In this document: piece by piece, positions 38,456-44,041 of the stretch
Layout: every line of letters starts with the position of its first letter
Numbering within the stretch: the stretch's first letter is position 1
Origin: Thermodesulfobacterium thermophilum DSM 1276
GTDB lineage: Bacteria > Desulfobacterota > Thermodesulfobacteria > Thermodesulfobacteriales > Thermodesulfobacteriaceae
Length of the DNA: 64,000 nt
Direction of reading: 5' to 3'
NCBI RefSeq assembly: GCF_000421605.1
Contig: NZ_ATXI01000004.1
Coordinates: 1-64,000 of the forward strand
Notes under the pieces: generated by a model
What the model was told of the DNA's origin: nothing
Database searches by the model: none
Seen by the model: the letters and a program-made list of their open reading frames with translations, nothing else
Position numbers and translations under genes: made by a program

Positions 38456-39619
38456 TTATTTTACCCCTTTGCCTCCAAGCTCTAAGTTAAGTGCCTCTTC
38501 TTCAACCCTTCTTTTTTTCTTGATAAGGTCTATTTGTCTTCCCACAACATCTTTTCTTAATGCATGATAAATAGCCAATTCTTCTTCTATAAGATTTTTT
38601 TCGTAAAGCTCTATCAGATGTTGATCAAAGGTTTGCATCCCAAAGGGTTTACCCTGGGTCATAACGTCATAAAAGGTTTTACCCTCTGATTCTCCTGTAA
38701 GGATAATTTCCTTGGTCCTTAAGTTATTGTAAAGAATATCAAACACTGGGATCCTTCCTCCTCCTATCTTAGGAAGAAGTTTTTGCCCTATCACCCATTT
38801 TAAAGAGGCTGCTAATCTTTGTCTGATAAAATTTTCTTCATCAGGAGGATAAAAACCTATAACCCTGTTTATCGTTTGGGAGGCTCCTATCGTATGCAAA
38901 GTAGAAAAAACTAAATGTCCTGTTTCAGCTGCCATAAGTGCAATATCCATAGTTTCTCTATCTCTTATTTCTCCTACTAAGATCACGTGAGGAGCTTCTC
39001 TTAGGGCTGCCCTAAGCCCCTCTGCATAAGAGCTAAAATCTGTACCTAATTCTCTTTGATTAATGGTAGCTTTAATTGGTTGATGGATATATTCTACAGG
39101 GTCCTCTAAGGTTAAAATATGGACCGGTTGAGTCTTATTTATTTCATGAAGGATAGCAGCTAAGGTAGTGGTTTTCCCCTGACCTGTAGCTCCGGTAACC
39201 AACACAATCCCAAATTTTTCCTTAGCTATTTTATAAAAAACCTCAGGGAGGCCCCATTCATCTATACCCTTAACCCTCCCTTCAAGTTTTCTCATGATGA
39301 TGTTATAGTTTTTTTGACGAGAAAAGACGTTTACCCTAAAACGAGTTTCGTCATCTAAAAAATAAGAAAGGTCTGCATATCCGTCTTTTAAAAGTTTCAC
39401 AAAAAGTTGAGGGTTTTCTTTTAAAAGGTTGAACGCAATGTTCTCGGTTTGATGAGGAGTTAACCTTTCTACATAAAAATCCTCTAAAAATACATTTTTC
39501 ATCTTTCCATAAACCATAACCTGAAAAGGATAACCTGAAAGGATAAAAATATCAGAAATACCTGGTTCTATGTTAGCTAACTTGTAAAGTAGCTCTTTTA
39601 TATCAAAATCTGTTAGCAT
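38456..39619 (-). CDS. PilT/PilU-type secretion ATPase, second copy
   Basis: A 387-residue hexameric-type secretion ATPase related to PilT, which powers type IV pilus retraction. Walker A is variant, GATGQGKTTTLAAIL (PilT: GPTGSGKST); the Asp box (LTLEDPVEYIH), Walker B region (APHVILVGEIRDRETMDIAL) and His box (TGHLVFSTLHTIGASQ) are present. It differs from the upstream paralogue in the N-terminal domain and in a charged C-terminal tail (DLIKKKRRVEEEALNLELGG), features that resemble PilU-like accessory ATPases. It lies 7 bases after the first pilT. Confidence 0.85.
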   Translation of the reverse strand: MLTDFDIKELLYKLANIEPGISDIFILSGYPFQVMVYGKMKNVFLEDFYVERLTPHQTENIAFNLLKENPQLFVKLLKDGYADLSYFLDDETRFRVNVFSRQKNYNIIMRKLEGRVKGIDEWGLPEVFYKIAKEKFGIVLVTGATGQGKTTTLAAILHEINKTQPVHILTLEDPVEYIHQPIKATINQRELGTDFSSYAEGLRAALREAPHVILVGEIRDRETMDIALMAAETGHLVFSTLHTIGASQTINRVIGFYPPDEENFIRQRLAASLKWVIGQKLLPKIGGGRIPVFDILYNNLRTKEIILTGESEGKTFYDVMTQGKPFGMQTFDQHLIELYEKNLIEEELAIYHALRKDVVGRQIDLIKKKRRVEEEALNLELGGKGVK

Positions 39620-39626
39620 GGATTTA

Positions 39627-40718
39627 CTAACCCGGCATTTCGGTGAAGTCTAAAATTTCTTTGTTTTGGACAAAAGGAATAAACCTACTTTTATCAACTG
39701 CTTTGATAAAGGCCTCTTCAGGACTTATCCACTTGTTGTTAAGATATTCCATAATACAGTCATCAAGAGATATCATCCCATACTTTTTACCCATCTGAAT
39801 CATCGAAGGTATTTGATGGATCTTATTTTCTCTTATAAGGTTTCTGATCGCAGGGGTAGCTATCATGATTTCCATGGCCACAATCCTACCAGGTCTGTCT
39901 ATCCTTTTAAACATCGTCTGAGAGATAACTGCTCTTAAAGCCTCTGATAAAGAAACCCTTATCTGGTCTCTTTCCTCCGGAGGGAAAGCATCCACAATTC
40001 TACTTACAGTTTGAGCTGCGCTGATGGTATGAAGGGTAGCAAATACTAAATGTCCGGTTAAAGCTGCTTCAAGAGCTAAAGAAATGGTTTCTAAATCTCT
40101 CATCTCACCTATCATGATAATATCAGGGTCTTCTCTCAGAGCAGCCCTAAGGGCATTAGCAAAACTTTTGGTATGGATGCCAAGCTCTCTTTGGTTTATC
40201 AGACAATTCTTAGGTTCATGCACAAATTCTATAGGGTCTTCTATGGTAAGAATATGGTCATAACGCATTCTGTTAGCATAGTCTATGATAGCAGCTAAGG
40301 TGGTAGACTTACCTGACCCTGTAGGACCAGTAACCAACACCAAACCTCTTGGCAAAAGGGCTAACCGATTAAGGATGGAAGGAAGGCCTAACTCTTCTAC
40401 GGTTTTTATCTTGTTAGGAATAAGTCTAAAGGCTGCAGCAACTCCCCTTCTTTGACGATAATAGTTAACCCTAAAACGAGCTAAACCAGGAATTTCATAA
40501 CCCCAGTCTACTTCTCCTTGTTCCTCAAACCTTTTGATGATTTCTTCTGGGGCTATCTCATAGAGCATTTCTCTAAGTTCTTCATCTTCTAAAACTTTAT
40601 ATTTAACTCTTTGAAGATCTCCGTGAATCCTGAGTAGAGGAGGGTTACCTGCAGAAAGATGCAGGTCAGAAGCTTGGGTGTCAACCATCAATTTAAAAAA
40701 AGCGTCTAACTTTGCCAT
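39627..40718 (-). CDS. pilT: Type IV pilus retraction ATPase PilT
   Basis: A 363-residue PilT ATPase. N-terminus MAKLDAFFKLMVDTQASDLH is typical; then Walker A GPTGSGKSTTLAAII, Asp box LTIEDPIEFVH, Walker B with DPDIIMIGEMRDLETISLAL, His box TGHLVFATLHTISAAQT and the C-terminal retraction motif AIRNLIRENKIHQIPSMIQM (PilT AIRNLIRE). It should act at the cytoplasmic base of a type IV pilus. No pilin or assembly genes are in the window apart from the adjacent paralogue. The gene has its own promoter with little leader. Confidence 0.93.
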   Translation of the reverse strand: MAKLDAFFKLMVDTQASDLHLSAGNPPLLRIHGDLQRVKYKVLEDEELREMLYEIAPEEIIKRFEEQGEVDWGYEIPGLARFRVNYYRQRRGVAAAFRLIPNKIKTVEELGLPSILNRLALLPRGLVLVTGPTGSGKSTTLAAIIDYANRMRYDHILTIEDPIEFVHEPKNCLINQRELGIHTKSFANALRAALREDPDIIMIGEMRDLETISLALEAALTGHLVFATLHTISAAQTVSRIVDAFPPEERDQIRVSLSEALRAVISQTMFKRIDRPGRIVAMEIMIATPAIRNLIRENKIHQIPSMIQMGKKYGMISLDDCIMEYLNNKWISPEEAFIKAVDKSRFIPFVQNKEILDFTEMPG

Positions 40719-40762: not shown

Positions 40763-41197
40763 TTAAGTAAAACTTTCTACCTCTCTTTCTACATGGACCT
40801 CCATGGCTTTGGTGATACAAACTGCCACACAAAACTCACAAGCTGTGCATTTTTCAGGGTTAAACCTTATATAAAAGGTATCTTTTTCCACATAAAGAGC
40901 CCCTGTTGGACATGCAGCAGTACAATTTCCACAATGAATACATTTTTCCTCATTCTTGATGATCTGTTGTTCTAAAGATTTGACTTCAACCCCTACTTCC
41001 TTAAGATAGTTTAACCCTTCTTTTAGTCTTTCAGGTGTACCCTCTAATTCCAAGATCATGATGCCTTCTTTACCAGGGGTGATTACCGCTCTAAGAATGT
41101 TAAAAACTAAATCATAATCCTTTACCAGCCTATATACTATAGGCTGGTCTACTATCTCTGGGTTAAACTTAAGATATAAACCCTTTTTGTAGACCAC
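40763..41197 (-). CDS. NIL-domain 2[4Fe-4S] ferredoxin
   Basis: A 144-residue protein with an N-terminal NIL domain (about 1-75, FNPEIVDQPIVYRLVKDYDL) and a C-terminal two-cluster ferredoxin with CIHCGNCTAACP and CTACEFCVAVC. NIL ferredoxins accompany a reductive sulfur-incorporation route to homocysteine and other sulfur-transfer steps in anaerobes (family knowledge). The start is GTG 41197 with GGAGGGTAAAG before it. It follows the ycaO gene by 16 bases, suggesting electron supply to, or sulfur chemistry with, the YcaO protein. Its usual partner, a COG1900 protein, is not seen. Confidence 0.9.
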   Translation of the reverse strand: MVYKKGLYLKFNPEIVDQPIVYRLVKDYDLVFNILRAVITPGKEGIMILELEGTPERLKEGLNYLKEVGVEVKSLEQQIIKNEEKCIHCGNCTAACPTGALYVEKDTFYIRFNPEKCTACEFCVAVCITKAMEVHVEREVESFT

Positions 41198-41213
41198 CTT
41201 TACCCTCCAAGGA

Positions 41214-42956
41214 TTAGTTTTGGTTGTTTAAAAACTTTCCACAATATTCTAATCCCATTTTAGCAACCGTCAAATCAGGATTAAGCTCTAAGGCTTTTAA
41301 GAAAAAAACCTCTGCAGTAGGTAGCTGGTTTAACGCCTTTAAACAATAGCCTACATTGGCATAGTCTATAGCTGAACCTGGATTTAAATCTATAGCTTTA
41401 AAAAAGGCATCCATGGCCAGAAAATATTCTTCTAACTTATAATAAGCCCTTCCTAAGATGTTGTAAAGCTCAGGTACCTCTTCTAAAGAAAGGCCTTGTA
41501 AAGCAGTTTCCACCGCTTTTTTATACTGTTCATCCTTTAAATAAGCATCGGCTAAATGTGTATAAAGGGCTATTTTGTCGTCGTCAAAATCGATCATTTC
41601 AAGTGCCTTTTGATAGGCTGAAATTGCTTTGGTAGTGTCTTTTAACTCTTTATAAACATTACCCAAAAAAGCCCAAAGAAAATATCTGTCTGGTACCTCT
41701 TTTATCAACTCTTCTAATATTGATTTTTGAGACTCAAGAGGAAGATAAAGGCTTAAAGTTCTTACAAACTGATAAAGATAGGAAATCTTAGTTCTTTCTC
41801 TAAAAAGTATTCCTGGAATCACCGCATAAACCGCAGGAATTTCTAAATCTGGGCGAGTTATGTCTATCAAATAGGTTTGATATTCTAACTCTTTTAGTCT
41901 ATCAGCTAAGACCTCAAGTTCTTGAATATGATCTTCAGAATAAAAATTAGGAAGATCTTGCAAACTAACCTCTCCGTTGGTAGCCAATACCTGAGTAGCT
42001 TCTTCTAAGGTACGAAACTTTGGAAGCCCACTTTCTAAATATTTACCCTCGGTATCAAAATCTCCAGCCAGCTGAGCTACTTCTGTCAAGGCCCTTATTA
42101 AAGCCCTTTCTGGTGAAGTACCTGTACCAGCAGCATAAACGATTTCACTTCTGTGAGGATAGGTAGAGGGATCCATCGCCATCACCGCTATCGTTGGAGC
42201 AGGCATTCCAAAGGTCATATCTCTTATCCATACCTTTATCCCCAATCTCTCATAACAAGAAAGCAGTCTCTCTCCTTCCCCTGAAATTGAACTTCTTTTT
42301 ATTTCAGCCATTGGTATACCCTTTCTCACCGAAAGAGCGTTCACATGTCTTTCTATCAACTCACAGATAGCCTGAGTAGCTGCCTCAGGATAGGTATTCC
42401 CCCCAGCAGACCCATTATATTCATAAAGCATCCAAAACCAATGAAAAGGTAGATATTTAACTTTTTTAGTAGTAACCTCTAACCCAGGAACAAACCACAT
42501 AGGAGTCTTTTTTATATAACGATAGGCTATTTCTCTAACCTTATCTTGTTCGTCATCTTCTACAGACCTCAAAAATACCTCCCAGGCAAGGGCATCTTCT
42601 CCCAACTCCTCGAACGTTGTTAATCTTCCTACCTTTTCTACCGATCGATAATAAGAAAACAGAGAAAACCTTTCTACCAACTCCATAAGTGCACTTGCTT
42701 TAGCTAAAACCTCAGTAGAACCTTTACCCATCTGTTTAAAATTTCCGGTAGTTCTCTGCCCATCTATATCATAAAGACTTATATAAACAGGGATTCCAAG
42801 CCTTCCCTTATCTATCCTCTGAACTCCTTTATAAACCTTAAGCCCCAGGCTTTTAAGCCTATTTTCTACCCTCAATACCGTCTCTTCAGGAAAAGCTGCC
42901 TTGTCAGCTATTACTTTTTTAGAAGGTTGAAAAAATTTTTTTAAAAGGCCTTCCAT
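41214..42956 (-). CDS. YcaO-domain protein with C-terminal TPR repeats
   Basis: A 580-residue protein. Residues about 60-410 form a YcaO domain: the ATP/Mg-binding ladder reads KASALMELVERFS, QAICELIERHVNAL and RALTEVAQLAGDF. YcaO enzymes use ATP to activate amide backbones, giving azolines, amidines or thioamides. From about residue 420 to the end several TPR units are visible (AFLGNVYKELKDTTKAISAY, YTHLADAYLKDEQYKKAVET, YNILGRAYYKLEEYFLAMDA), as in the E. coli YcaO type with a C-terminal helical domain. No precursor peptide or TfuA partner is evident; a NIL ferredoxin follows. It may modify a protein, possibly by sulfur insertion (inference). Confidence 0.88.
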   Translation of the reverse strand: MEGLLKKFFQPSKKVIADKAAFPEETVLRVENRLKSLGLKVYKGVQRIDKGRLGIPVYISLYDIDGQRTTGNFKQMGKGSTEVLAKASALMELVERFSLFSYYRSVEKVGRLTTFEELGEDALAWEVFLRSVEDDEQDKVREIAYRYIKKTPMWFVPGLEVTTKKVKYLPFHWFWMLYEYNGSAGGNTYPEAATQAICELIERHVNALSVRKGIPMAEIKRSSISGEGERLLSCYERLGIKVWIRDMTFGMPAPTIAVMAMDPSTYPHRSEIVYAAGTGTSPERALIRALTEVAQLAGDFDTEGKYLESGLPKFRTLEEATQVLATNGEVSLQDLPNFYSEDHIQELEVLADRLKELEYQTYLIDITRPDLEIPAVYAVIPGILFRERTKISYLYQFVRTLSLYLPLESQKSILEELIKEVPDRYFLWAFLGNVYKELKDTTKAISAYQKALEMIDFDDDKIALYTHLADAYLKDEQYKKAVETALQGLSLEEVPELYNILGRAYYKLEEYFLAMDAFFKAIDLNPGSAIDYANVGYCLKALNQLPTAEVFFLKALELNPDLTVAKMGLEYCGKFLNNQN

Positions 42957-42976
42957 ATTCCACTCCTTTTGTTTAT

Positions 42977-43018
42977 AATTTAAAAAATTTAATTACTTTG
43001 GTAAACTTTATTTTACCA
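42977..43018. promoter_or_regulatory. ycaO promoter with overlapping inverted repeat in the ycaO/mnmA divergent spacer
   Basis: On the minus strand TTTACC (43000-43005), a 17-base spacer and TAAATT (42977-42982) form a plausible ycaO promoter. The -35 box lies inside a perfect inverted repeat TGGTAAA (42999-43005) / TTTACCA (43012-43018), spaced by 6 bases and ending 7 bases before the mnmA ATG. A bound protein could affect both divergent genes. Confidence 0.45.
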
Positions 43019-43024
43019 TAAAAC

Positions 43025-44041
43025 ATGAAAATCGCCATTTGTCTAAGCGGAGGAATTGATAGCGCTATTTCTGCCTATCTTTTAAAAAAACAAGGGGCCT
43101 CTTTAGTCGGAATCACCTTTAAGCTTTTTAAAAAACAAAAAGAAGTAGAAAAAGCTAAATTTATAGCCCAAACCCTTGACATACCCCATCACACCATAGA
43201 CCTTACCCAGGAATTTCAAGAACAAATCATCTCTTATTTTATAAACACTTATGCCCAAGGCCAAACTCCCAATCCATGTGCTCTATGTAACGCAAAAATA
43301 AAATTTGGGAAAGTCCTTGACTGGACGTTAAAAAATTTAGAGACCGAAAAGTTAGCTACCGGACATTACGTGGATTTAGGGGAATACCAAGGAGAGCTCC
43401 TGTTAAAGAAAGCAAAAGATTCTAAAAAGGATCAATCTTACTTTTTATCTTTGATCAACAAGGATGCTTTATCTTTTCTAACATTTCCTCTAAGTGGTTA
43501 CTTAAAAGAAGAAGTTAAAATGATGGCTAAAGAAGTTTTTGGGATAGAAACCTCGCAAGAATCTCAGGACGTATGTTTTTTAAAAGGAAGTTCAGTTAAA
43601 GAGTTTTTATCTATGTTTTTAAAACCTAAAAAGGGGCCTGTGGTTTATAAAGATAAAGTAGTTGGGACCCATGAAGGGATATTTTTCTATACCGTAGGGC
43701 AGAGAAAGGGCTTAAGGCTTCCGTTAGGCAAACCTCTTTATATAACCTGTTTAGACCCGCAAACTAATACCATCTTTTTAGGAGAAAAAAAAGACCTTGC
43801 AGCTAAAGGTCTTGTACTTGAGAGTCTAAATCTACACCTTCCGATCGAGAAATGGACCTCTCCTGAAGCTCAGATAAGATACCGTAGCCCTATGGCTAAG
43901 GTTAAAGAGGTAATAACTGAAGAGGGGAAAACAAAGGTTCTTTTTGAAGAGGTTGTTTTTGGTGTAACCCCTGGTCAGGTTTGTGCCTTCTATGAAAAGG
44001 GTTTTTTGTTAGGAGGGGGAATCATCATAGACAAGATATAA
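43025..44041 (+). CDS. mnmA: tRNA 2-thiouridine(34) synthase MnmA
   Basis: A 338-residue enzyme that thiolates U34 of tRNAs for Lys, Glu and Gln. The PP-loop is CLSGGIDSAISAYLL; the catalytic cysteines are in NPCALCNAKIKFG and SQESQDVCFL. The C-terminal beta-barrel (YTVGQRKGLRLPLGKPLYI) is typical. ATG 43025 has no Shine-Dalgarno sequence, so it may be another short-leader gene. Here it is divergent from ycaO. MnmG, which modifies the same nucleotide, is at 48.8 kb. Confidence 0.95.
   Translation: MKIAICLSGGIDSAISAYLLKKQGASLVGITFKLFKKQKEVEKAKFIAQTLDIPHHTIDLTQEFQEQIISYFINTYAQGQTPNPCALCNAKIKFGKVLDWTLKNLETEKLATGHYVDLGEYQGELLLKKAKDSKKDQSYFLSLINKDALSFLTFPLSGYLKEEVKMMAKEVFGIETSQESQDVCFLKGSSVKEFLSMFLKPKKGPVVYKDKVVGTHEGIFFYTVGQRKGLRLPLGKPLYITCLDPQTNTIFLGEKKDLAAKGLVLESLNLHLPIEKWTSPEAQIRYRSPMAKVKEVITEEGKTKVLFEEVVFGVTPGQVCAFYEKGFLLGGGIIIDKI

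Follow-up and report, generated by a model that had tools for sequence, protein, structure and literature searches.

No more than two proteins, McrA and ribosomal protein uL16, are presented in PMC13063428 as bearing a backbone thioamide for which the enzyme is known. In the established YcaO mechanism, sulfide adds to an amide carbonyl and the oxyanion departs once ATP has phosphorylated it (PMC13063428; PMC5589413). We analysed here a YcaO protein with a C-terminal TPR domain (YcaO-TPR), encoded beside a NIL-ferredoxin in a stretch of 64,000 nucleotides, hereafter the window, from Thermodesulfobacterium thermophilum DSM 1276 (contig NZ_ATXI01000004.1, positions 1 to 64,000; genome of 1.79 Mb in 46 contigs, 100% complete). 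Our results make it moderately probable that YcaO-TPR serves sulfate reducers as an enzyme that introduces a thioamide into a protein backbone at the expense of ATP, and that its substrate is DsrC.

Among the described relatives, the McrA-thioamidating YcaO proteins (MJ1094 and that of Methanopyrus kandleri; TIGR03266) have the same catalytic domain and ATP motif and a glycine target in common with the one predicted here, and TfuA is dispensable in some of them, with Methanocaldococcus jannaschii and M. kandleri bearing the McrA modification without it (PMC5589413). They differ from the window protein, which has an extra TPR domain, a bacterial host and DsrC as predicted target. The Escherichia coli YcaO, which acts on Met82 of uL16, combines the same YcaO and C-terminal TPR parts with a whole-protein substrate, no TfuA and no precursor peptide (PMC13063428), so that protein thioamidation by YcaO without TfuA is documented in both systems (PMC5589413; PMC13063428); its identity to the window protein is about 19-20% over the structural alignment and its substrate differs from the predicted one. 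The same architecture is found in DVU2210 of Desulfovibrio vulgaris, which PMC7774982 links jointly with Sat to molybdate sensitivity and whose native target is stated there as unknown.

Family membership and structure of YcaO-TPR

The window protein belongs to the YcaO superfamily (PF02624, 208.7 bits against a cut-off of 25.7) and contains the Sx6-7Ex3Qx3ExxER ATP motif. Judging from the alignment, the ATP/Mg site of its YcaO domain is intact, since 14 positions remain unchanged in 116/116 members of the main YcaO-TPR group (called canonical below), including the invariant E191, Q195, E199, E202 and R203. In contrast, all more specific profiles stayed below their cut-offs: 109.1 of 365 bits for TIGR03266 (equivalog of the McrA-glycine thioamidation YcaO), 56.4 of 700 for NF040716 (uL16 or 'S12 accessory', E. 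coli type; 43-45 bits for two orthologs) and 100.1 of 219.25 for TIGR03604 (azoline-forming YcaO). A YcaO of azoline formation or of ribosomally synthesized and post-translationally modified peptides was ruled out by the TIGR03604 score, the precursor peptide having been sought in the list of open reading frames alone. The TfuA profile (PF07812) gave no match anywhere in the host genome, so the YcaO-TfuA pair of thioamide formation does not apply; the sequence-only reading had likewise noted no TfuA.

An AlphaFold2 model built from a 49-row alignment reached a mean predicted local distance difference test score of 94.2 over the whole model. According to VIA-align, the solved structure closest to this model is the McrA-type YcaO of M. 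jannaschii (6peu; Z 37.9, 339 aligned, 2.8 A), followed by LynD (34.4), the M. kandleri YcaO (34.1) and the E. coli YcaO (30.9). The best matches of the TPR part, at Z of about 19-21, are other TPR domains, including several that bind peptides, as expected of any TPR. These results bear on whether YcaO-TPR could thioamidate uL16 like its E. coli counterpart. The shared YcaO and TPR layout and a full-length Foldseek match of the model to the E. coli structure (4q86) are in line with such a target, but the NF040716 scores, the lower Z against the E. coli protein than against the McrA type and an isoelectric point of 5.2 versus 4.4 for E. coli YcaO (PMC13063428) speak against it, and it would leave the restriction of YcaO-TPR to genomes with dsrA unexplained. 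We consider it very improbable indeed, and a uL16/RimO-type YcaO was ruled out by the NCBIfam scores together with the structure comparison. It should be noticed that grouping with RimO-type proteins, which had been named as an argument against sulfur chemistry at this locus, is outdated as such, since the E. coli protein has meanwhile been demonstrated to place a thioamide in uL16 (PMC13063428).

Association of YcaO-TPR with dsrA and dsrC

The distribution of YcaO-TPR was followed in 247 genomes of the phylum, each at least 90% complete, 100 of which have PF02624 above its cut-off. The FastTree phylogeny (143 rows) comprises the canonical group of 116 rows, 7 short members (481-516 aa) and further divergent proteins. 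As FastTree places long branches loosely, we drew the limit of the canonical group from starred forks and from architecture. Within it, the window protein falls into a clade of 47 rows (27 linked to the NIL gene, 19 to dsrC and 1 to neither), where the 27-row NIL-linked clade that holds it is sister to the dsrC-linked protein of G216, from the same order, and the tree requires 2 changes for NIL linkage and 7 for dsrC linkage. The published ATP motif of DVU2210 (PMC7774982) agrees at 14-17 of 20 residues with canonical Desulfovibrio-type members versus 6-8/20 with the second YcaO class of those genomes, which suggests that the window YcaO is orthologous to DVU2210. Note that in one relative of Thermodesulfobacterium (G088:C1; L107, L151) a canonical, NIL-linked YcaO gene is separated by about 8 kb from a second one, of 485 aa, which stands beside dsrC.

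Canonical YcaO-TPR is present in 92/247 genomes, of which 91 have a full dsrA and one (G204) dsrA fragments; 33 genomes have dsrA without it and 122 have neither (Fisher p 6e-38, a value that overstates independence because the genomes are related). That YcaO-TPR presence follows dsrA would also be expected if another protein of sulfate reduction (DsrAB, AprAB, QmoABC or DsrMKJOP) were modified and dsrC adjacency merely reflected membership of a Dsr regulon, and a third kind of YcaO, short (about 440 aa) and non-canonical, lies less than 5 kb from dsrA in three genomes (G067:C3, G200:C178, G240:C7). However, it is a single DsrC residue that shows the association, and the very peptide concerned has been reported with a +16 mark (see below), so that we regard another Dsr-type target as rather improbable.

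DsrC (PF04358) recurs in the neighbourhoods of YcaO. We used 120 of 127 stretches (the seven omitted being six second YcaOs from genomes represented already and one overlapping stretch) plus L001 and L002-L025, a set of 145 with certain organisms represented more than once. The neighbours found most often were the NIL-ferredoxin (28 loci), DsrC (26) and MnmA (22). In 21 of the 26 DsrC loci, dsrC lies within 1.5 kb, always on the same strand as YcaO. Across the genomes, dsrC occurs at 4 kb or less from canonical YcaO in 22 cases against about 0.3 expected (25 when non-canonical YcaO are counted); it precedes YcaO in a single family and follows it elsewhere, and the control pairs HcyBio-dsrC and NIL-dsrC were never adjacent among the matches listed. 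Of the seven more distant loci, in which NIL does not adjoin YcaO (L019-L025, see below), six (L019-L024) have a 106-aa gene ending in KMAGLPKPTGCV, which is dsrC. Two observations may be added on these neighbourhoods. In dsrC-linked loci, nine altogether and L020-L024 among them (e.g., L022:4445-4936), ycaO is immediately preceded on its own strand by a gene of 163-165 aa (DUF2934 with a sub-threshold DUF5335 match). In family f17 (L063, L071, L074, L103), the DsrC paralog near YcaO ends in TTSERAICKIAGLPKPTGCI, with both cysteines kept and the glycine segment gone.

The recurrence of the sulfur-trafficking genes dsrC, NIL-ferredoxin and mnmA next to YcaO would also suit a role of DsrC as sulfur donor, handing sulfur to YcaO-TPR for the thioamidation of another protein. 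TusE passes sulfur to MnmA in E. coli. Moreover, the sulfur route of E. coli YcaO is presented as unsettled, with co-opted proteins of primary metabolism suspected, in PMC13063428, where sulfide itself nevertheless suffices in vitro, at unphysiological concentration. A donor role would leave unexplained both the Gly/Ala contrast at one backbone position of DsrC and the +16 mark on its peptide, and it appears unlikely.

A DsrC glycine and a published mass mark

The DsrC C-terminus reads FPSGP-x-KGACKxAGLxKPTGCV, where x is residue 90. Our comparison demonstrated Gly at x in all 95 main DsrC copies accompanied by canonical YcaO (89 of the 91 canonical genomes that possess a main copy, and 6 GTDB loci), while the 37 DsrC without it have Ala in 29 cases and Gly in 8; the TTSER-type rows of G014, G051, G081 and G105 were excluded from these counts and from the pairs test below, and no main copy from G051 or G105 entered them. 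An initial reading of the same position had given 41/45 in the YcaO set versus 26/28 in the set without. In family f37, G069 and G095 combine canonical YcaO with Gly, whereas G035 (a single contig) has Ala and no enzyme, its DsrC being 85% identical to that of G069. For G120, a further f37 genome without canonical YcaO, Ala was predicted from G035 before the sequence was read and was then found (GPAKGACKMAGLPKPTGCV); the two genomes possibly go back to a single event. G035 and G120 both deviate at three (K60Q, V67I and G90A) of the 49 columns that are conserved at 97% or more among the DsrC with YcaO. Solved DsrC structures display Ala in 1yx3 (Allochromatium vinosum), 1sau (Archaeoglobus fulgidus) and 1ji8 (Pyrobaculum aerophilum), and Gly in 2v4j, 2xsj, 3or1 and 3or2. 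In the numbering of the 105-residue sequence of 2v4j, the candidate glycine (Gly90 in the host DsrC) is Gly89 of D. vulgaris, four residues before Cys93, which together with Cys104 forms the redox cysteines of DsrC.

A mass mark on this segment is found in a 2011 interactome study of D. vulgaris, in which the native DsrC peptide LK*EVYELFPSGPGK is listed as 'Trimethylation+Oxidation' in three pull-downs (baits ApsA, CooH and RoO; ProtScore 1.7, 1.7 and 1.5; PMC3125180). Met, Trp and Cys are all absent from the oxidation-marked peptide (LKEVYELFPSGPGK), whose last two residues are Gly89-Lys90. We computed shifts of 58.0419 Da for trimethylation plus oxygen, 58.0241 for trimethylation plus thioamide and 58.0055 for carboxymethylation, i.e., distances of 11 and 22 ppm from the listed oxidation, compared with a Mascot precursor tolerance of 100 ppm, the modification search being done by ProteinPilot (PMC3125180). 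The mark may thus be a thioamide, whose O-to-S exchange is nearly isobaric with oxidation; the uL16 thioamide was overlooked earlier because of this near-isobaric mass (PMC13063428). A full-text search for FPSGPGK among openly licensed PMC articles returned PMC3125180 alone, and none of these articles joined DsrC with YcaO, DsrC with thioamide, or YcaO and thioamide with sulfate-reducing. Separately, Table 1 of PMC3125180 reports lysine trimethylation for the D. vulgaris proteins DsrC, ApsA and ApsB, an unexplained modification of proteins of sulfate reduction.

Taken further, our proposal is that YcaO-TPR uses sulfide from the environment to make a backbone thioglycine in DsrC, at a distance of four residues from the redox cysteine, and that this thioglycine was recorded in 2011 as 'oxidation', a fuller version that we regard as evenly balanced. 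Phosphorylation by ATP would activate the carbonyl of Gly90 (Gly89 in D. vulgaris), abundant cellular sulfide would replace its oxygen to give thioglycine without TfuA, and the TPR domain would aid the docking of DsrC. The thioglycine could then stiffen or tune the arm that bears Cys93 and Cys104. The published genetics of DVU2210 are compatible with this model without demonstrating it. Indeed, a D. vulgaris strain without sat and DVU2210 is molybdate resistant, as is S195R in the ATP-binding region of DVU2210 in a sat deletion background (PMC7774982), and sulfate-free syntrophic evolution led to DsrC non-loss mutations in six lines and to a DVU2210 mutation in one dilution culture (PMC8319347).

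Several points weigh against the thioamidation of DsrC. DVU2210 lies outside our sample and its orthology rests on a motif of 20 residues, with 17/20 as best agreement; its deletion alone allows normal growth on sulfate, and direct involvement was doubted in PMC7774982. In most canonical loci, including the window, dsrC is not adjacent to YcaO, and the dsrC near canonical YcaO in G014, G051 and G081, as well as that near the short YcaO of G105, is a divergent paralog without the glycine segment. Eight DsrC (G188, G030, G220, G181, G162, G209, G189 and G229) keep Gly without the enzyme. The contrast is phylogenetically thin, Ala forming one deep clade plus G035 in the DsrC tree, which makes it weak when taken alone, and in G035 and G120 columns 60 and 67 change alongside column 90. 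The independent-pairs test, run before G120 was added, gave 2 pairs in the same direction, 0 opposite and 3 tied (p 0.5), so that residue coupling was discarded as formal proof; among all proteins, it was examined for DsrC only. For the peptide, methylation alone is discussed by the authors in PMC3125180, and +58 Da could also be carboxymethyl-lysine or genuine oxidation; carboxymethylation may apply because the search for post-translational modifications permitted iodoacetic acid 'as appropriate', although the in-solution digestion described relies on dithiothreitol (PMC3125180).

The locus, the NIL-ferredoxin and what DsrC thioamidation would mean

The window gene (Table 1) is the only YcaO copy detected in the host genome by the PF02624 profile, and its closest named match is that of Thermodesulfobacterium hveragerdense (96% identity). 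The sequence-only reading had described a pair of YcaO-TPR and NIL-ferredoxin genes beside a divergent mnmA, all of which we recovered, and had proposed one promoter for the pair, which our results do not support; a sigma-70 consensus scan found no minus-strand site in the 68 bases between the ycaO start and mnmA, where other promoter types are possible. It had further asked whether the adjacency was peculiar to this genome. This is not the case, since the NIL-ferredoxin directly follows ycaO in 17/17 Thermodesulfobacteria-type loci (L002-L018), making 18/18 with the window, and the pair is therefore real and conserved across Thermodesulfobacteria. In L002-L018, mnmA is divergent upstream in 7 loci, and in 6 it lies downstream with the same orientation. 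None of the 7 more distant loci (L019-L025) has NIL adjoining YcaO, and NIL and YcaO are neighbours again in another family (G069, G095), there with NIL upstream. Directly downstream of the NIL-ferredoxin gene, two tandem T2SSE/PilT-like ATPases (window 38456-40718) are also kept next to it in relatives of Thermodesulfobacterium.

Table 1. Coordinates of the YcaO-TPR locus in the window
Feature	Position	Strand	Basis and remarks
YcaO-TPR gene, 580 aa, ATG start	41214..42956	-	candidate DVU2210-type ortholog, as in sulfate reducers
YcaO catalytic domain, residues 76-383	41808..42731	-	PF02624; structure match to 6peu (model)
ATP/Mg motif SAGGNTYPEAATQAICELIER (Sx6-7Ex3Qx3ExxER)	42348..42410	-	sequence; motif definition from PMC7774982
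C-terminal TPR helical array, residues about 393-579	41220..41780	-	Pfam TPR_1 and others; AlphaFold2 helices
Intergenic gap ycaO/NIL-ferredoxin, 16 bp	41198..41213	.	gene coordinates
NIL-ferredoxin gene, 144 aa, GTG start	40763..41197	-	NIL residues 9-73 and two 4Fe-4S motifs
mnmA, tRNA 2-thiouridine synthase, divergent neighbour	43025..44041	+	score above NCBIfam cut-off

In D. vulgaris, homocysteine synthesis requires DUF39 (HcyBio), a NIL/ferredoxin protein and COG2122 together (PMC5764234). The window NIL-ferredoxin has the domains of this family (NIL PF09383 at 62.6 bits and the two 4Fe-4S motifs) and is the sole NIL protein of the host genome, where a single HcyBio gene stands elsewhere (C14:13200-14273, 510 bits); unlike in the described system, the gene sits with ycaO instead of HcyBio in the order of the window. 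HcyBio is present in 167 and NIL in 195 of the 247 genomes. Among the matches listed (positions in 143 HcyBio and 139 NIL genomes; distance 3.5 kb), NIL lies near HcyBio in at least 34 genomes and near YcaO in at least 12, and the three genes are consecutive in G095 in the order HcyBio-NIL-YcaO. Since the genome has one NIL protein and HcyBio, and NIL often stands beside HcyBio, the window NIL-ferredoxin is most likely the electron or sulfur partner of HcyBio, sharing just a transcription unit with ycaO. The conserved adjacency in all 18 Thermodesulfobacteria loci, and in G069 and G095, could still be taken to indicate a dedicated two-protein system for thioamidation or sulfur insertion. We consider this highly unlikely and rejected it as the leading explanation, given the single NIL copy alongside HcyBio, the NIL-HcyBio linkage elsewhere and the fact that most canonical YcaO have no NIL neighbour, their recurrent partner being dsrC. 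Thus, the earlier proposal of a protein-modifying YcaO outside peptide natural products is supported in its first part, with thioamide chemistry probable and sulfur-trafficking genes as neighbours, but not as regards the NIL-ferredoxin as dedicated partner. Our findings are in favour of thioamide formation, though with another partner than first proposed and with DsrC as the specific target.

Altogether, the role of YcaO in sulfate reducers would become open to testing with strains already made, with maps on deposit and with proteomics data that are public. If our reading is true, DsrC would be the third protein backbone thioamide with a known enzyme after McrA and uL16, and DVU2210 would gain a function. 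The carrier tail of sulfate respiration would be chemically tuned by the end product of the pathway itself, and an enzyme system of global importance would have to be seen differently.

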